Assembly: GCA_020161655.1 (NCBI GenBank)
Contig: JAIUPC010000012.1
Location: forward strand, 496,001-560,000
Source: Pseudomonadota bacterium
GTDB taxonomy: Bacteria > Pseudomonadota > Alphaproteobacteria > Rhodobacterales > Rhodobacteraceae
Direction: 5' to 3'
Length of the DNA: 64,000 nucleotides
The notes beneath the pieces were generated by a model. That model had not been told where the DNA came from and searched no databases. It worked only from the letters and a program-made list of their open reading frames with translations. Within the stretch, counting starts at the first letter, position 1. Each line of letters begins with the position of its first letter. Position numbers and translations under genes: made by a program. Below, piece after piece: positions 3,521-10,648 of the stretch.

Positions 3521-3588
3521 CCTCACTTTCTGTCTCGAAATACTCCGGGGGAATCCCCGCGCATGCGGGGATGGGGGCAGCGCCCCCT
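3521..3588 (-). repeat. dispersed intergenic element plus hairpins after the operon
   Basis: Read leftward, 3551-3521 contains CCCCCGGAGTATTT followed by CAGAAAGTGA, the same pattern as at 26216-26250. It is preceded by a perfect 8-bp hairpin (3553-3560 with 3565-3572, loop GCAT) and by a G5C/GC5 hairpin (3573-3578 with 3582-3587) that reaches the stop codon of the reductase-like gene. It may act as a 3' stabiliser or terminator for the five-gene operon; no clear T-run follows. Confidence 0.55.
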
Positions 3589-5023
3589 ACTTTGCCCGCG
3601 GAATCCGCCGCTCGATCTGGTCGGCGATCTCCTCGACCCGGCGCACCTGCCCCATATGGCCGCCAAGGGCCGCATAGTCCGACAGGCGCAGCGTGAACTC
3701 GATGGGCGCCACCAAGGCCGGCGTTGGCACATAGCCGAAGGCATTGGCCGGCATGTCCATGACATCGGCCATGAAGGTGATGCCGCCGCCGGGCCAGACA
3801 TAGCATTCCGCCCCGCCGCAGGTAACCTTCGTCACCGCCTGCCGCACCGACCGCGTCAGCCTGACCGGGTTCTCCGTCACCCCGGCGCGCAACGACCCGC
3901 CCGCTCCGCCCATGAAGAGTACCGAGGCAACCGAGGGTTCGCAATTCTCGGCGATCCGCTCCACCGACTGCTTCAGCGCCGCCGGCAGTTCCGCCTTCAC
4001 CGGCACCCGGTTCTCGTCGAGCTCGTAGTAGCCCCATTGCTCGCCGGTGGTGGACACCATCAGCAGGCGCAACCCCGCCCGCGCCGGATCGCGCCAGGGG
4101 CCGAGGATCGTCAGCGGGTCCTCGATATTGGTGCCGCCCCAGCCGGTGCCGGGTTCGGCGACACGGAAATAGCGGCCCGGCGTCGACTTGTGGCCGAGGA
4201 TCTTGATGCCCGTCGGCGGCACGTCGAGAAGCTTGCCCGCCTGATGCTCTGACAGAACCCCGGTGATGTGGTCATCCACCACCACCACCTCGTCCACCAG
4301 CCCGTGCCACTGCTTGGCGAACATGCCGATGGTGGCCGAACCGCAGCCGACCCGCATCAGATGTTCCTCGACGCCGTTCACCACCGGCGGCTGGCCGGCC
4401 TGAAGCACCACCTCGGCGCCGCCGTCGATGGTCAACGTCACCGCCTCGCGGTTGCAAAGCCTGAGGAGCGCATCGCAGGTGACGCGGCCTTCCTTCTTCG
4501 AGCCGCCGGTCAGGTGATGAACTCCGCCCAAGGACAGCATCTGCGAGCCATACTCGGCGGTCATCACATGGCCGATGGGTTCGCCATCGACCCGGACGGG
4601 CGCGGCCTCGGGGCCGAGGAAACGGTCGGTGTCGATCTTCACCTTGGCGCCGCAGTAGGAGAAGATCCCCTCGGTGACGACCGTCACCATGTCGACGCCG
4701 TCATGATCCTGCGCCACGATGAAGGGCGCGGGCTTGTAGTCCGGGTAGGTCGTCCCCGCCCCGATGGCGGTGATGATCGGGCGTTCCGATCGCAGGATGT
4801 CGCCGTCCCAGTCGCCGGCATCGCCGTCGAGGAACGGCACCACACGGCCATCTTCCTTCGCCGCCTCAAGGACCGTGAAGGGATCGAGCCTGACGAGCTC
4901 GCCGCCCTCGTTGGCATAGCGGTCGCAGGCGCCCGCGCGGCCATCGGCGATGTAGCACATGACCGGGCAGGCATCGCAGCGGATCTTGCCCTCAAGCCGT
5001 GATTCCACAGTCTGACGGACCAT
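3587..5023 (-). CDS. 6-hydroxynicotinate reductase-like iron-sulfur protein
   Basis: 478 aa. The N-terminus has a Cys cluster, C16-x2-C19-x3-C23 and C33, in IRCDACPVMC...GACDRY, as in ferredoxin-like iron-sulfur sites. The rest resembles proteins annotated as 6-hydroxynicotinate reductase, the ring-reducing enzyme of anaerobic nicotinate breakdown in Eubacterium barkeri; I recognise this from memory of the family. I chose ATG 5023 because AAGGAGG lies 7 nt upstream; a TTG at 5029 is too close to it. It is the last gene of the operon, 2 nt after the molybdopterin subunit stop. The true substrate is unknown; an aerobic organism may use it on a different hydroxylated heterocycle. Confidence 0.72.
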   Translation of the reverse strand: MVRQTVESRLEGKIRCDACPVMCYIADGRAGACDRYANEGGELVRLDPFTVLEAAKEDGRVVPFLDGDAGDWDGDILRSERPIITAIGAGTTYPDYKPAPFIVAQDHDGVDMVTVVTEGIFSYCGAKVKIDTDRFLGPEAAPVRVDGEPIGHVMTAEYGSQMLSLGGVHHLTGGSKKEGRVTCDALLRLCNREAVTLTIDGGAEVVLQAGQPPVVNGVEEHLMRVGCGSATIGMFAKQWHGLVDEVVVVDDHITGVLSEHQAGKLLDVPPTGIKILGHKSTPGRYFRVAEPGTGWGGTNIEDPLTILGPWRDPARAGLRLLMVSTTGEQWGYYELDENRVPVKAELPAALKQSVERIAENCEPSVASVLFMGGAGGSLRAGVTENPVRLTRSVRQAVTKVTCGGAECYVWPGGGITFMADVMDMPANAFGYVPTPALVAPIEFTLRLSDYAALGGHMGQVRRVEEIADQIERRIPRAK

Positions 5024-5025
5024 TC

Positions 5026-7725
5026 TCAAGCCTCCTTCGCGGCACGGATCGCCGCCAGAACCCGGTCCGGCGTCGCCGGAACTCTTGTGATGCGCGCGCC
5101 CGTCGCGTGACGGATCGCCGACAGGATCGCCGGCGCCGTCGGGATCAGCACATGTTCGCCCAGACCCTTGGCGCCGTATGGCCCGTGCGGGTCCGTCACC
5201 TCGACGATAAGCGAGGTTATGGGCGGCACGTCACCGATGGTCGGGATCAGGTAGTCATGCAGGTTGTCGGTGCGGCCGGGGATATACTCCTCCATCAGCG
5301 CAAGGCCGATGCCCTGCGCCACGCCGCCGTGGATCTGGCCTTCGACCAGCATCGGGTTGATCGCCCGGCCGACGTCATGGGCGGCATGGATGCGGGTCAG
5401 CACCACCGTTCCAAGCGTGGTGTCCACGGTCAGCTCCGCCATCTGCGCGGTATAGCCATAGACCGCGTAAGGCACCCCCTGCCCGTTCTTGTCCAGGGGC
5501 AGCGTCGGCGGATCGTAGGTTTCCGCCGCCTCGATGGCGTAATCCATTCCTTCAGCCAGCGGCACATGGTGGCGAATGCCGTCGGGTGCTGTGACGGTCA
5601 GGCCGCCCTCGAACCCGATCACGCCATCCGCGCAATTCGTCAGCCGCAGCACCTCTGCCCGAAGCGCCAGCCCCGTCAACCGCGCCGCGTTCCCCGAAAC
5701 GAAGGTCTGGCGCGAGGCCGAGGTCTTGCCGGCATCCGGCGTCACATCGGTATCGGGGCCGATCAGTTCGACCTTTTCCAGCGGCACGCCAAGGGCTTCG
5801 GCGAAGATCTGGGCGATGACCGTATTGGCCCCCTGCCCGATATCCATCGCCCCCTGATGAAGGACGATGCGGCCATCACCGGTGATCCCGGCCCGGATCG
5901 TCGAGGGGTTGGGAAGCGAGGTATTGCCGCAGCCGTACCAGCCGCAGGCGACGCCGACGCCCTTCCTGAGCGTGCCGCCTTGGGCGTTGAACGCCTCCGC
6001 CGCCTTCACCGCTTCCTCCCATGCGGGCTTCAGTGCCTCAAGGCAGGGTTTGATCCCGACCGCGCCGTCGAATACCTGTCCGGTCGCCGTCGGGATGCCG
6101 TTGTCGAGCGCGTTCAGAAGCCGGAACTCCAGCCGGTCCATCCCGAGGGCAAGGCAGAGGTCGTCAAAGACGCATTCCTGCGCGATCGCCGCCTGCGGCA
6201 CACCGAAGCCGCGGAAGGCGCCCGCCGGAACGCAGTTGGTATGGACCGCCTCGGTCCGCGCCACGTAATCGGCATGCGCATAGGGACCGCTGGCATGGAC
6301 CGGCACCCGGTTCGCCACCGTCGGCCCCCACGAGGCATAGGCGCCGGTGTTGAAGGCGCCGTCGAAGGCGAAGCCCGAAAGCCTGCCCTCCTTCGTCGCC
6401 CCGGCGCGGACCCGCATCTGCGCGGGGTGGCGCTTGGTGGTCGAGGACATGCTGTCGGACCGGCTGTAGACGACCCGCACCGGTCGCTTCAGCCGCATCG
6501 CGGCGAGCGCCACATGTGGTTGCCATGAAAGATCGAGCTTCGATCCGAAGCCGCCGCCCACTGCCGTCGGCAGGATGCGGATCGCCTCTTGCGGCAGGTT
6601 CAGGATCAGCGCGAGCGAGTCGCGGTTCATCTGCGGCGCCTGGGTTCCGCCGATGATCTCGACCCGGCCATTCTCCCAGCGGGCGAACCCGGCCTCCGGC
6701 TCGATATAGGCATGTTCGATGAAGCCGGTCTGGAAGCTGCCTTCCGCCGTCACGAAGGCCGATGCGATGGCCTCCTCGGCCTCGCCCTTCTTGACGAAGC
6801 CCCGGCACATGACGTTTTCGGCGCGCCCCTCGTGCATCTGCCCTGCGGCCCTGGCGGCCTCGGGCGTCAGCGCCTCGGGCTCCGGGTGCCAACTCACCGG
6901 GAAAGCGGACAGGTCGAGCGCCGTCATCCGCGCGGCCGGGCCAATGACCGCCGCCACAGCCTCGCCCCGGAAGCGGGCGGTGCCTTCGGCATAGACTGGC
7001 TGGTCGACAAAGGCCGGGATGACGCCGAAGGCGTTGAGACCCGGCACATCGGCGGCGGTCAGGATCAGGTCCAGCCCCTCGGCCTTGGCATAGGCATCAA
7101 GATCGCCGAATCCGAACCGGGCGAGGTGATGCGGCGAGCGGATCACCCGGAGGACCAGCGCATCCGCTGGCGGAGCATCATCGCCGAAGACCTCGCGCCC
7201 CTCGACCTTCCTCGCGCCGTCGACACGGGCCACCGCCCCGCCGACGCGGCCATCCTGTGGTGCCTCTGCGCCCCGCCAGTCGATCACCGCGTCGATGATC
7301 TTGCGGTAGCCGGTGCAGCGGCAGAGGACGCCGCCCAGCGCATCGCGCACCTGCGGCTCATCCGGTGCGGGATTGGCGCGGAGAAGGGCGGCGGCAGAGA
7401 CGAGCATTCCCGGCGTGCAAATACCGCATTGCGCCGCGCCGTGGCGTTCGAAGGCCTTGGTCAGCTGCGCCACCAGCGGATCGGTGGCATGAAGCCCGGT
7501 CAGGGTTTCGACCGCCTGCCCCTCGGCCAGGGTCGCGGGCGTGATGCAGGCGCAGACCGGCGCACCGCCCAGCAGCACGGTGCAGGCACCGCAATCGCCG
7601 GCGTCGCAGCCGATCTTCACATCGTGGCAGCCAAGATCGCGGCGGAGCACGGTGGCGAGGCGTTCAAGCCCCGCCGCCCCGGCCTCGGCGGGCCTGCCGT
7701 TCAGGGTGAAGGCGATCTTCGTCAT
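5026..7725 (-). CDS. xanthine dehydrogenase-family hydroxylase, fused 2Fe-2S and molybdopterin subunits
   Basis: 899 aa fusion of the small iron-sulfur subunit and the large molybdopterin subunit. Residues 1-140 hold the plant-type 2Fe-2S site (C40, C45, C48, with C58 or C60) and the second 2Fe-2S site (C100-x2-C103, C135-x-C137 in CRCTGY). The molybdenum part (about 170-899) has VGGGFGSK, GAFRGFGVPQ, MDIGQGANT and the catalytic Glu near 857 in GAKGLGEH. Such enzymes hydroxylate aldehydes, purines or N-heterocycles using water. The layout resembles aldehyde oxidoreductase Mop, but here a separate FAD subunit gene overlaps it by 4 bp, giving a complete enzyme. Substrate cannot be read from the sequence. 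Confidence 0.9.
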   Translation of the reverse strand: MTKIAFTLNGRPAEAGAAGLERLATVLRRDLGCHDVKIGCDAGDCGACTVLLGGAPVCACITPATLAEGQAVETLTGLHATDPLVAQLTKAFERHGAAQCGICTPGMLVSAAALLRANPAPDEPQVRDALGGVLCRCTGYRKIIDAVIDWRGAEAPQDGRVGGAVARVDGARKVEGREVFGDDAPPADALVLRVIRSPHHLARFGFGDLDAYAKAEGLDLILTAADVPGLNAFGVIPAFVDQPVYAEGTARFRGEAVAAVIGPAARMTALDLSAFPVSWHPEPEALTPEAARAAGQMHEGRAENVMCRGFVKKGEAEEAIASAFVTAEGSFQTGFIEHAYIEPEAGFARWENGRVEIIGGTQAPQMNRDSLALILNLPQEAIRILPTAVGGGFGSKLDLSWQPHVALAAMRLKRPVRVVYSRSDSMSSTTKRHPAQMRVRAGATKEGRLSGFAFDGAFNTGAYASWGPTVANRVPVHASGPYAHADYVARTEAVHTNCVPAGAFRGFGVPQAAIAQECVFDDLCLALGMDRLEFRLLNALDNGIPTATGQVFDGAVGIKPCLEALKPAWEEAVKAAEAFNAQGGTLRKGVGVACGWYGCGNTSLPNPSTIRAGITGDGRIVLHQGAMDIGQGANTVIAQIFAEALGVPLEKVELIGPDTDVTPDAGKTSASRQTFVSGNAARLTGLALRAEVLRLTNCADGVIGFEGGLTVTAPDGIRHHVPLAEGMDYAIEAAETYDPPTLPLDKNGQGVPYAVYGYTAQMAELTVDTTLGTVVLTRIHAAHDVGRAINPMLVEGQIHGGVAQGIGLALMEEYIPGRTDNLHDYLIPTIGDVPPITSLIVEVTDPHGPYGAKGLGEHVLIPTAPAILSAIRHATGARITRVPATPDRVLAAIRAAKEA

Positions 7726-8552
7726 GCGGTGCCCCCGAGTTCTGTCAGCGCCCGCCGGATCAGCGCCAGCGCCGCCTCGCGCCGGTAGCCGCCCGTCGCG
7801 CGCACATCGTCGATGGGCGTCAGCGCCGCAAGGTGATGCGGCAGGACCGCGCCGGACAGGTCTGACAGCGCCCGCCCCTTCAGCGCCGCTTCGGCTTCGG
7901 GCAGTCGCATCGGCACCGGCGAGGCCGCGCCGACCGCGACCCGCGCGCCGGTGACGATCCGCCCCTCGGTCCAGAGGATCACGGCGACGGAGACGATGGA
8001 GATGACGAGGTAGGCGCGGCTCCCGAGCTTTTCGAATCGCGACACGGCACCGTCGCGATCCGGCAGGTAAAGCGCGGTCACGATTTCCCCTGCGCGAAGT
8101 TCGGTCCGGCGCGGGCCGGTGATGAAACGCCCAAGCGGCATCCGCCGTGTCCCCGCCGCCGAGGCCAGTTCCACCTCCGCCTCCATCGCGACCAGCACCG
8201 GCACGCCATCGGCGGCAGGCGAGGCGTTGCAGATGTTGCCCGCAACGGTGCCGGTATTCTGGATCTGCACCGACCCCACCTGCCGCGCCGCCTGCTTCAG
8301 CGCGTCAAAGAGCGGCGGCAGGTCGGCGCCGACGATATCGGTCCAGGTCGCGCCCGCACCGATCCGCCAGCCTGCGCCTGTCCGCGAGACGCCCCTGAGT
8401 TCGTCGATTGCGGTGAGGTCCATCACGCGCGCCGGGGCCTGCCGGACCCCGAGGGCCGGAAATACATCCGTACCCCCCGCGATCAGCGCTGTGGGTGCCG
8501 CCGCAAGTTCGGCCAGCGCCTCGTCGAGATGCCTTGGCCTGAAAACCGTCAC
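7722..8552 (-). CDS. molybdenum hydroxylase FAD-binding subunit
   Basis: 276 aa FAD_binding_5/CO_deh_flav_C protein, the electron-transfer subunit of the hydroxylase. FAD motifs are LIAGGTDVFPALG near residue 23 and GTVAGNICNASPAAD near 102. It begins with GTG (8552-8550), whose GTGA overlaps the stop of the DUF1185 gene, and ends in an ATGA overlap with the fused FeS/Mo subunit. The three linked overlaps indicate tight translational coupling. Length is usual for this subunit (about 260-300 aa). Confidence 0.9.
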   Translation of the reverse strand: MTVFRPRHLDEALAELAAAPTALIAGGTDVFPALGVRQAPARVMDLTAIDELRGVSRTGAGWRIGAGATWTDIVGADLPPLFDALKQAARQVGSVQIQNTGTVAGNICNASPAADGVPVLVAMEAEVELASAAGTRRMPLGRFITGPRRTELRAGEIVTALYLPDRDGAVSRFEKLGSRAYLVISIVSVAVILWTEGRIVTGARVAVGAASPVPMRLPEAEAALKGRALSDLSGAVLPHHLAALTPIDDVRATGGYRREAALALIRRALTELGGTA

Positions 8553-9136
8553 CGGAGCCCGTCCTTGCCTTCCGCTTCCTGATGCGTCAGCCCGCCGACC
8601 CTTTGCAAAGGCCGGCCGCTGTCGGCCACGGCGACGGCGACGAGGATTTCATCGGCGCGCGGGGCGTCGTTGATGCTGACCTCCATCCCGTCGAAATGCG
8701 ACCGGACATAGGCCGCGTCCTTGTGGCCCAAGGGCACGTCCAGGGGATGCCCCATCGGCCCGCGCTTCTTGTTCGAGGGCACCAGCGCCGCGCCCTTTTC
8801 CACGGCGGCGCGCAGGGGCTTGCCAAGCTTCGGATGCAGGATCGCGGCGGCATGTTCCAGCTCGCCATTCTCCCCCACGAGCGCGGCCTTGCCGTAGCTC
8901 TGCGCCTCGCCAGGCGCGATGCCGAGCGCGGCCACGCATTTCTCGCCCAGAAGCGCCCCCAGTTCCTCGCCGATTTCCATGAGATCGTCGAGATCGGCGA
9001 CATAGCGGCCCGCGAAGGGGTTGGCGATCACTGCGATGGCGGCGGCCCGGCGCGTCGGCGGCGAGACCTTCTGGCCCATCTCGGTCAGAACCTCTTCGAC
9101 CACGGTCACGATCTTGCGGATATTGGCCTTCGTCAT
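8549..9136 (-). CDS. DUF1185 / AA_synth family protein
   Basis: 195 aa cytoplasmic protein beginning MTKANIRKIVTVVEEVL. It matches the Pfam family once called amino acid synthesis (DUF1185), found in alpha- and betaproteobacteria without a settled function. Recognisable stretches are AIAVIANPFAGRY, GEAQSYGKAALVG, and KPLRAAVEKGAALVPSNKK. ATG 9136 is preceded by AAGGAG at 9 nt and overlaps the UPF0280 stop (ATGA). Being locked between UPF0280 and the hydroxylase genes suggests a role in the same pathway, perhaps a ring-product hydrolase or binding protein; that is inference only. Confidence 0.78.
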   Translation of the reverse strand: MTKANIRKIVTVVEEVLTEMGQKVSPPTRRAAAIAVIANPFAGRYVADLDDLMEIGEELGALLGEKCVAALGIAPGEAQSYGKAALVGENGELEHAAAILHPKLGKPLRAAVEKGAALVPSNKKRGPMGHPLDVPLGHKDAAYVRSHFDGMEVSINDAPRADEILVAVAVADSGRPLQRVGGLTHQEAEGKDGLR

Positions 9137-10041
9137 CTTCTGGCTCCTTCCAGCCGGGGAACGGCTTTCGCGGCGAACGGGCCGGCGACGCGCATCTCGC
9201 CTTGCAGGCAGAGGAACGCGCCCCGGATCAGGCCGGCGGCGACCATCGCCCCGGCCACGGCAAGTCCGGCCTCCAGCGCGCGGGCGCGGTCTGCGGCAGT
9301 AAGGGTGGCGACGCCGGTCGTCACCAGACGGTCGCCGAGATCGCTGTCGGGTGCAAGCGCCCGTGCCGACGCCCGCGTCACGGCAGGCGATCCGGGCAGG
9401 TCGACGGCATTGGCGACCATCGTCGCCGCCGCATCGGCGGATGCGGCATCGGCGGCAAGAATCGTGACGGCATCGGCGATGCCAAGCGAATGGCTCCGCC
9501 CGCGCCAGCCGCTGGTGGCGACACCGCCAATGCCATCGGCGGCGGTGAGGTCGATATGGGCCGGGAAGCCGCCCTGCCCCAGATCGGCGACGGCGACACG
9601 CGCCCGCGTGCCGGGGCCGAGGCGGAGCGCGATGTCGCCGCCGTTGTTCACGAGAACCCGCGACAAGGGGGCCGCCGCCCACGCCAAATCGGCGAGATCG
9701 TCGGCCACCGAACCGGCAACCGCCGCCATCGGCGTGATGAAGCGCGCGGCATGGGGCCTGACCGCCGCCATCATCCGCCGCGCGACCGGCCCTTCGGGAT
9801 CGGGACTTGCCGCGCCCACCTCCGACCGGAGAAGCGGAAGCTCGGCCACAAGGCGGTCGAGAAGCCCGGCGAAGGCATTGCGCACCGCCGCTTCGGCAAG
9901 GGCCACGGCGGCACCCTCGCCGGAAAGATCAAGGATGACGTCGATCGGTCCGTGGCGCAGCCGGAGGCGACCCGAGCCGGCGATCCGCCCGGCCACGGCG
10001 CGGTCGGTTCCGGTCATCCGCCCTTGAGCGACAGCCGCCAT
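9133..10041 (-). CDS. UPF0280 (ApbE-superfamily) protein, first gene of the operon
   Basis: 302 aa. It resembles UPF0280 proteins, which are grouped with ApbE, the FAD:protein FMN transferase. Features are RPHAARFITPMAAVAGSVAD followed by VNNGGDIALRL, the stretch that corresponds to the GGD region of ApbE. No signal peptide is visible, unlike classical ApbE. ATG 10041 has GGAGG 4 nt upstream. It opens the five-gene operon and overlaps DUF1185 by 4 bp. A possible role is flavin attachment to the terminal reductase-like protein, whose Eubacterium relative is reported to hold covalent flavin; this is a hypothesis. Confidence 0.78.
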   Translation of the reverse strand: MAAVAQGRMTGTDRAVAGRIAGSGRLRLRHGPIDVILDLSGEGAAVALAEAAVRNAFAGLLDRLVAELPLLRSEVGAASPDPEGPVARRMMAAVRPHAARFITPMAAVAGSVADDLADLAWAAAPLSRVLVNNGGDIALRLGPGTRARVAVADLGQGGFPAHIDLTAADGIGGVATSGWRGRSHSLGIADAVTILAADAASADAAATMVANAVDLPGSPAVTRASARALAPDSDLGDRLVTTGVATLTAADRARALEAGLAVAGAMVAAGLIRGAFLCLQGEMRVAGPFAAKAVPRLEGARR

Positions 10042-10087
10042 CGCCCCTCCCGCGCTACCTTGATGCCACGGGGTGGATTCGGCCTCG

Positions 10088-10113
10088 AAATTTGTTTGTT
10101 GTCAAACAAATTT
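10088..10113. promoter_or_regulatory. candidate MarR operator, perfect 11-bp palindrome
   Basis: AAATTTGTTTG at 10088-10098 is repeated as its exact reverse complement CAAACAAATTT at 10103-10113, with a 4-nt spacer TTGT. It is an AT-rich island in GC-rich DNA and lies in the 190-bp gap between the divergent operon (start 10041) and the MarR gene (start 10232). Paired TTTG/CAAA half-sites fit the dimeric winged-helix binding of MarR proteins. Likely bound by the adjacent MarR protein to control both directions. Confidence 0.72.
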
Positions 10114-10231
10114 TCGCGGCCTTTTCCGGCTTGCCGGCCACCACGCGCCGCAAAGCCGCATTTGGCGCTTGGCGATAGGCCGCCGCAGCGCCTAGGCTGC
10201 GGGAAAGCCGCGCACAAGAGGGACATCAAGA

Positions 10232-10648
10232 GTGGGTGAAACGGACGATTACCGACTGGATCACCAGATCGGCTTCAAGCTACGCGTCGCGAACCAGAAG
10301 CATCTGGAGATTTTCACCGCCGCCATGCCCGACCTGACGCCGCGCCAGTTCGCGGTGATGGCGAAACTTCTCGAACAGGGCCCCTTGTCGCAGAATCACC
10401 TCGGCCGTCAGGTGGCGATGGATGCGGCCACCACGAAGGGCGTGATCGAGCGGCTCCTCCGCAAGGGCTATGTCCGCTCAGTGCCTTCAGGCAACGACCG
10501 CCGCCGTCTGGAAATCTCGCTGACCAGCGAAGGCACTGCCGCAACGCACGAAGCCACCGCCATCGCGCAGGACATCTCGGCCCGCACGGCACGAAACCTG
10601 ACCGAACGCGAGTTGCAAAGGCTTCTCGCCCTGCTCGACAAGCTCTGA
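10232..10648 (+). CDS. MarR-family transcriptional regulator
   Basis: 138 aa winged-helix regulator. The DNA-binding part is visible as TPRQFAVMAKLLEQGPLSQNHLGRQVAMDAATTKGVIERLLRKGYVRS, followed by the wing SGNDRRRLEISLTSEG. It starts with GTG at 10232. It is transcribed away from the hydroxylase operon across a gap that carries a strong palindrome, the usual arrangement for a MarR repressor released by a pathway substrate. It is followed by a tRNA-Leu gene on the other strand. Confidence 0.9.
   Translation: MGETDDYRLDHQIGFKLRVANQKHLEIFTAAMPDLTPRQFAVMAKLLEQGPLSQNHLGRQVAMDAATTKGVIERLLRKGYVRSVPSGNDRRRLEISLTSEGTAATHEATAIAQDISARTARNLTERELQRLLALLDKL

Follow-up and report, generated by a model that had tools for sequence, protein, structure and literature searches.

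A probable split-locus variant of aerobic reductive nicotinate catabolism in a Rhodobacteraceae genome, with candidate partners for UPF0280 and DUF1185 proteins

The window analysed here, a stretch of 64,000 nucleotides from a Rhodobacteraceae genome (GCA_020161655.1, contig JAIUPC010000012.1, positions 496,001 to 560,000), contains a five-gene unit that combines a molybdenum (Mo) hydroxylase, an iron-sulfur protein of the 6-hydroxynicotinate reductase type (here called RED), a UPF0280 protein and a DUF1185 protein. Most likely this operon encodes a variant of the published aerobic route of reductive nicotinate breakdown, one that uses a different hydroxylase and has its genes split over two places, and we regard it as highly probable that the unit is the front end of such a catabolism, in which uptake, C6-hydroxylation, 6-hydroxynicotinate reduction and ring opening would lead to glutarate. 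What is new is a hydroxylase of a different type from that of Bradyrhizobium around the same reductase, the co-occurrence of UPF0280 with RED, and the co-occurrence of one DUF1185 subtype (b) with an enamidase-type ring opener. The features concerned are the following, with FAD standing for flavin adenine dinucleotide and ORF for open reading frame.

9133-10041, minus strand: UPF0280 gene, first gene transcribed
8549-9136, minus strand: DUF1185/AA_synth gene, subtype b, second in transcription order
7722-8552, minus strand: gene for the FAD subunit of the hydroxylase, third, with a GTG start
5026-7725, minus strand: gene for the fused [2Fe-2S]/molybdopterin subunit of a xanthine-dehydrogenase-family hydroxylase, fourth
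3587-5029, minus strand: gene for the putative 6-hydroxynicotinate-reductase-type iron-sulfur protein (RED), fifth, a 480-amino-acid ORF with a TTG start
10232-10648, plus strand: MarR-family regulator gene, divergent from the five-gene unit
10088-10113, no strand: operator-like perfect inverted repeat with 11-bp arms and a 4-bp spacer, in the gap between the UPF0280 and MarR genes

With the listed starts, all four junctions of the five-gene unit overlap by 4 bases, and all of its frames are open without an internal stop. The five genes with overlapping ends and the divergent MarR gene, described in an earlier note on this sequence, are real, and the true start of RED may lie slightly downstream of the listed TTG.

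RED is 89% identical to its homologue in Defluviimonas salinarum (locus L058) and 71-75% identical to reductases of Bradyrhizobium and Afipia, and PMC3511419 gives 42% identity between the homologue of Bradyrhizobiaceae strain SG-6C and the Eubacterium barkeri enzyme. From these identities RED is predicted to be a 6-hydroxynicotinate-reductase-type protein, which answers, by homology alone, the question of whether it might belong to an unrelated family. Its N-terminal CxxCxxxC...C motif is present in 21 of 21 aligned rows, the window's included, and eight cysteines are invariant in all 101 rows, which would suffice for two [4Fe-4S] clusters. The same source (PMC3511419, 2012) reports that the reductive nicotinate route was later found in aerobic Azorhizobium caulinodans, and places a nicotinate cluster in Azorhizobium, Bradyrhizobium japonicum, Rhodopseudomonas palustris and strain SG-6C, the last of which degrades nicotinate and 6-hydroxynicotinate; the cluster is described as encoding the enzymes of the three initial steps of nicotinate breakdown, an ATP-binding cassette (ABC) transporter and two proteins of unknown function. 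We take this route to pass through tetrahydro-6-oxonicotinate and glutarate, and the Bradyrhizobium loci suggest that the two unknown proteins are UPF0280 and DUF1185. Hydroxylation followed by reductive dearomatisation, as the earlier note had it, is still the best reading, while its view of an undescribed pathway, with this chemistry known from fermenting Eubacterium, gives way to the report from respiring alphaproteobacteria.

The distribution of RED and UPF0280 ties the two proteins closely together. RED was found (E<=1e-10) in 44 of 289 sampled alphaproteobacterial genomes (the class sample), all 44 of them at least 2.5 Mb in size, in 21 of 299 genomes sampled across the phylum, and in 21 of the 22 genomes of the window's genus; UPF0280 occupies the identical genome sets (44 of 289 and 21 of 299), giving 61 distinct positive genomes, four of them common to both samples, with none discordant. 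A scan of named-species genomes gave at least 588 RED-related stretches, of which the best 80, a choice biased to the closest relatives, were kept; together with 20 chosen by position and that of the window they make up the 101 RED loci compared here, some of them shortened by contig ends. In 96 of these 101 loci the distance between UPF0280 and RED is no more than 7.5 kb, and the unit is therefore more than chance: the Mo hydroxylase and the reductase-type protein belong to one conserved unit, as had been proposed, and the gene set is conserved together elsewhere. Holders of RED among the best 80 include many Rhodobacterales, Rhizobium, Bradyrhizobium, Afipia and the gammaproteobacterial Granulosicoccus, and in a quick tree of the 101 rows the window and L058 form a pair (100%) inside a region made up mostly of loci with the fused hydroxylase and the enamidase. 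In one single-contig genome (G028, C1:2969805-2971204) the RED match is split over two adjacent frames, which may be a frameshift or a two-gene form.

UPF0280 passes the NCBIfam cutoff of NF003322 (328 against 290 bits) and matches no Pfam family, PF02424 included, at E<=0.001. Its AlphaFold model (25 rows) has a predicted local distance difference test score (pLDDT) of 90.9, and all 39 PDB matches of the model at E<=0.001 are UPF0280 or ApbE/Ftp/FmnB chains, first 2o34, itself a UPF0280 protein, and then the ApbE, Ftp and FmnB flavin transferases, with template modelling (TM) scores of about 0.3-0.5 to the query. In a profile alignment with ApbE (10 aligned proteins out of 12 fetched loci; probability 60, E 8.7e-5) the GGD, TSG and ADxxAT motifs line up, and D203 (in ADxAAT) and S177 (in TSG), invariant in 25 of 25 rows, align with the ApbE motifs, a match by motif to the Asp and Ser of the catalytic triad. 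The 6-hydroxynicotinate reductase of E. barkeri is said (Alhapel, 2006) to carry a covalently bound flavin. Because of the common genome set, the ApbE fold and this flavin, we propose that UPF0280 may mature RED in a flavin-transferase-like manner, working like ApbE though not classed as one. The window's genome additionally has two ordinary ApbE genes.

The ring opener and the transporter stand apart from the unit. On the same contig, 63 kb from RED, lies an amidohydrolase gene (G000:C6:435083-436258) whose product is 74% identical to that of locus L126, and which stands last in a series of genes encoding an M24-type peptidase, a pair of permeases and a pair of ATPases (types assigned by eye), with an additional upstream protein that by homology to L058 fits a substrate-binding protein; the whole operon spans G000:C6:428-436 kb. 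In L058 the same ABC and enamidase run stands in convergent orientation to RED and stops some 115 bases short of it, with 71-92% identity gene by gene, and for this reason the window is seen to show one half of a split locus. We infer the name enamidase for this amidohydrolase (cluster 7) from its family, its position and the published cluster, rather than from comparison with the E. barkeri enzyme. A transporter and a hydrolase, which the earlier note had found missing, are indeed not recognised beside the unit, yet both an uptake system and an enamidase-type amidohydrolase are present in the genome. Homologues for a glutarate branch lie on other contigs, a succinate-glutarate coenzyme A (CoA)-transferase (62%) and an acyl-CoA dehydrogenase (83%) that we read by eye as glutaryl-CoA dehydrogenase; both could just as well belong to lysine breakdown. 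A Rieske-type oxygenase gene (L140:15261-16388, by eye) also lies near the enamidase operon of the window's genome, and a different Rieske protein, which as a speculation could N-demethylate trigonelline, occurs in 17 of 100 RED loci.

The DUF1185 protein of the window matches PF06684 (E=2.3e-74) and the PDB entry 2qtp (E=1.5e-91), which is SPO0826 of Ruegeria (Silicibacter) pomeroyi. A quick tree splits the family into clades a and b with 98% support in the SH-like approximate likelihood ratio test (SH-aLRT), the program warning of long branches, and places the window's protein in subtype b. DUF1185-b (at least 71% identity to the window's protein) and a close amidohydrolase (at least 70%) share one set of 19 genomes out of 289, 18 of which also have RED; at a laxer cut of 60% DUF1185-b is found in 22 genomes, G195, G080 and G104 among them having no close amidohydrolase. 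It is also kept (71-78%) in all eight loci that combine a NicB-like hydroxylase with HyuA/HyuB-like genes. Proteins of this family may resemble RidA-type imine deaminases. Crystal structures of DUF1185, available since 2010, show a Bacillus chorismate mutase-like fold, and amino-acid metabolism was suggested as the field in which it acts (PMC2954203). In Acinetobacter baylyi trigonelline breakdown the homologue TgnF is reported in PMC7913881 to stimulate TgnE-dependent oxidation of succinic semialdehyde. Since DUF1185-b is kept both with the enamidase and with the HyuA/HyuB-like loci, and in view of the TgnF report, we place it after ring opening, where, by analogy and as a guess at its reaction, it might act on the aldehyde left behind. 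The idea, taken from the fold, that DUF1185 is itself the ring-opening hydrolase was set aside, DUF1185-b accompanying the enamidase and being retained in those eight loci. Within the literature accessible to search, which leaves subscription journals and preprints mostly outside, no paper names any two of hydroxynicotinate reductase, UPF0280, DUF1185 and AA_synth, and none of the three DUF1185/PF06684 papers found mentions UPF0280.

Two further DUF1185 observations concern other loci. Distant amidohydrolases (41-43%) stand beside distant DUF1185 genes at G060:C7, G202:C292 and G210:C1, where a second DUF1185-amidohydrolase pathway is possible. The window's genome itself holds a second DUF1185 gene (G000:C21:249218-249799, locus L142; 47%, subtype a) no more than 20 kb from ABC genes of the Liv type, and this may be a third fragment of the dispersed locus.

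The hydroxylase can be placed by family. Its FAD subunit matches FAD_binding_5 and CO_deh_flav_C (Pfam) and has among its PDB relatives, in fourth rank, the FAD subunit of nicotinate dehydrogenase (3hrd_C); its fused subunit matches Fer2_2, MoCoBD_1 and MoCoBD_2 (Pfam) and keeps the iron-sulfur cysteines and the GxGE glutamate (E857), which we take to be the catalytic residue, in 61 of 61 full-length rows, the window's copy included. Two [2Fe-2S] motifs, molybdenum cofactor domains, the GxGE glutamate and an FAD subunit together place it in the xanthine dehydrogenase family. Neither the Mo nor the FAD subunit reaches an NCBIfam cutoff, and the substrate is therefore not readable from the models. 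Among the RED loci the fused type is found in 63 of 100 and in 30 of 100 there is a NicB-like large subunit, the representative protein of which ends in cytochrome c domains, so that both types accompany one reductase family. Mapped on the RED tree, hydroxylase type changes twice (94 rows with a label, the other 7 omitted) and the ring opener five times (68 with a label, 33 omitted), the window being labelled 'enam' because of the amidohydrolase 63 kb away.

On the nicotinate reading the FAD subunit and the fused subunit would form the hydroxylase that converts nicotinate to 6-hydroxynicotinate, which RED would reduce to 1,4,5,6-tetrahydro-6-oxonicotinate with electrons probably from ferredoxin. 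The enamidase-type amidohydrolase, 63 kb off behind the ABC uptake system, would open the ring, and the C5 skeleton left over would become a semialdehyde, then glutarate and glutaryl-CoA. UPF0280 would mature RED, its task most likely being to handle the flavin or to attach it, DUF1185-b would act just after ring opening, perhaps like TgnF in helping a semialdehyde dehydrogenase, and MarR would repress the operon from the 10088-10113 palindrome until a pathway compound binds. Gene content, overlaps, co-occurrence, synteny and the UPF0280 fold are observed here, whereas the substrate, the reactions, the regulation and the roles of UPF0280 and DUF1185 are deduced.

Several points weigh against this reading. 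RED has no match at E<=0.001 among the Pfam and NCBIfam models and no PDB relative by sequence or profile, and its AlphaFold model is poor (pLDDT 55, 28 rows). UPF0280 lacks the catalytic histidine of ApbE, the loop that bears it being a gap in the profile alignment; according to PMC12052999 the conserved active-site residues of ApbE are Ser, His and Asp, and replacement of the His in the Vibrio enzyme lowers activity. A canonical flavinylation motif was not recognised by eye in the 21-row alignment of RED, where the best candidate, the Thr of a conserved CGSAT stretch, is Ala in three of the 21 rows. In genome G082 the enamidase and DUF1185-b occur without RED, and for HcdD, a DUF1185 protein of Pseudomonas mandelii, a helper effect was not observable according to PMC7913881. 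Three points remain, namely that a close enamidase is present in just 18 of the 44 RED genomes of the class sample, that the window's fused hydroxylase differs from the NicB-like type of Bradyrhizobium, and that the top-scoring solved relatives of the fused hydroxylase are aldehyde oxidoreductases, ahead of nicotinate dehydrogenase.

These last three are also what speaks for the strongest rival, in which the ring attacked by these enzymes is that of a different N-heterocyclic carboxylate (picolinate, demethylated trigonelline or a related ring) and nicotinate is limited to the NicB-like Bradyrhizobium clusters; the presence of HyuA-like genes near RED in 14 of 100 loci points the same way. Against it, the window's genome does have the close enamidase and DUF1185-b, its RED and its enamidase are 71-75% and 74% identical to those of Bradyrhizobium, and fused and NicB-like hydroxylases surround the same reductase family, so that we consider the rival unlikely. 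Still less probable, to the point of being hard to defend, is that the unit is an operon for homarine (N-methylpicolinate), named homABCDER. What speaks for it is that this name denotes five genes plus a regulator (R), in Rhodobacterales. The product of the homarine operon is N-methylglutamate. The homarine products are one carbon short of what hydroxylation, reduction and hydrolysis of the ring would leave, all 44 RED genomes are at least 2.5 Mb, whereas the hom operon is known from SAR11 with its small genomes, and the published cluster with the same core is a nicotinate cluster (PMC3511419); a role for Mgd in homarine breakdown is described in PMC13390433. Finally, a non-catabolic molybdoenzyme system (for example for aldehyde or purine oxidation) with an unrelated iron-sulfur partner is scarcely credible, for although the models that give the fused subunit its best scores are those of Se-dependent xanthine dehydrogenase and aldehyde oxidoreductase, it misses these NCBIfam cutoffs widely (515 against 830 and 487 against 1100 bits), and conservation extends to the partner genes and to the enamidase operon far away.

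Beyond the nicotinate reading itself we offer, tentatively and as something we would not bet on, a wider proposal. A His-less and probably cytosolic UPF0280 would attach or load the flavin of reductases of the RED type, DUF1185-b would be a TgnF-like, cofactor-free helper acting on the semialdehyde or enamine, and RED with these two would form an exchangeable ring-reduction module that is combined now with a fused, now with a NicB-like Mo hydroxylase, and for ring opening with either an enamidase or HyuA/HyuB-like proteins, so that the module may serve other rings, and some bearers may degrade N-heterocycles other than nicotinate, among the 26 of 44 RED genomes of the class sample in which a close enamidase is absent.

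In the comparison of the wider neighbourhood of RED, genes were named after their top NCBIfam match, which in every row displayed falls short of the curated cutoff, and ferredoxin, PncB and ABC-type names were assigned by eye. Liv-type ABC transporter genes lie near RED in relatives, and the cluster 7 amidohydrolase is found in 53 of 100 loci, ferredoxin-NADP reductase in 30, a HyuB-like gene in 12, acyl-CoA dehydrogenase in 5 and succinate-glutarate CoA-transferase in 3; a few loci have ferredoxin. Within the fetched stretch, 12 of the 30 NicB-like loci have the full set of RED, UPF0280, DUF1185, Liv-type ABC, MarR, enamidase and ferredoxin-NADP reductase. Eight Rhizobium-group loci combine the NicB-like hydroxylase and HyuA/HyuB-like genes with no enamidase within about 10 kb, and a further group of RED-UPF0280 loci, L044, L045, L049, L052 (HyuA and HyuB), L056 and L057 (HyuA), has neither a NicB-like gene nor a close enamidase in the fetched stretch. 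A nicotinate phosphoribosyltransferase-like gene (by eye) is near the cluster in 14 of 100 loci, for example L087, L094, L097 and L102, and would fit nicotinate as the substrate.

Upstream of the unit, the gap between the UPF0280 and MarR genes is 190 bp long. A repeat as good as that at 10088-10113 arose in 9 of 5000 first-order Markov simulations of this gap and is found in 5 of 336 190-bp bins of the window. L058 has a similar palindrome in the same place, with one mismatch and the common core TTTG-N4-CAAA. A scan demanding perfect 10-bp arms did not find the repeat in the other loci compared, and returned other palindromes at other places in several Bradyrhizobium-group loci. The regulator matches the MarR family at 44.5 bits (Pfam cutoff 24.6) and is 70% identical to the divergent MarR of L058. 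From the divergent regulator gene and the operator-like palindrome we infer that the operon is substrate-inducible.

The new value of these results lies in partner assignments for UPF0280 and DUF1185, since co-occurrence gives both proteins testable jobs, UPF0280 with the reductase and DUF1185-b with the ring opener. A route for vitamin B3 reported from rhizobia-like bacteria would, moreover, be present in many Rhodobacterales with a different hydroxylase. Compared with the ApbE/Ftp flavin transferases (PF02424), UPF0280 has the same fold and the C-terminal GGD, TSG and ADxxAT motifs, and differs in lacking a match to that family and the catalytic His and in its apparent partner, RED. TgnF and HcdD (PMC7913881) are, like the window's protein, DUF1185-type members of catabolic clusters, with other substrates and enzymes, the likeness being one of family. 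Nicotinate fermentation in Eubacterium barkeri (Alhapel 2006, cited in PMC3511419) uses, as we propose for the window, a hydroxylase, a 6-hydroxynicotinate reductase and an enamidase, and it differs in being anaerobic, in its dehydrogenase of several subunits (3hrd chains) and in its downstream route. Closest is the cluster of Azorhizobium and the Bradyrhizobiaceae (PMC3511419), which has in common with the window's system the reductase, an enzyme for the enamidase step, an ABC transporter, two further proteins and a respiring alphaproteobacterial host; it has a NicB-like hydroxylase with cytochrome c domains where the window has an FAD subunit and a fused iron-sulfur/Mo subunit, and a different gene order, while the window's enamidase lies 63 kb away with a different ABC operon (oligopeptide type, by eye).

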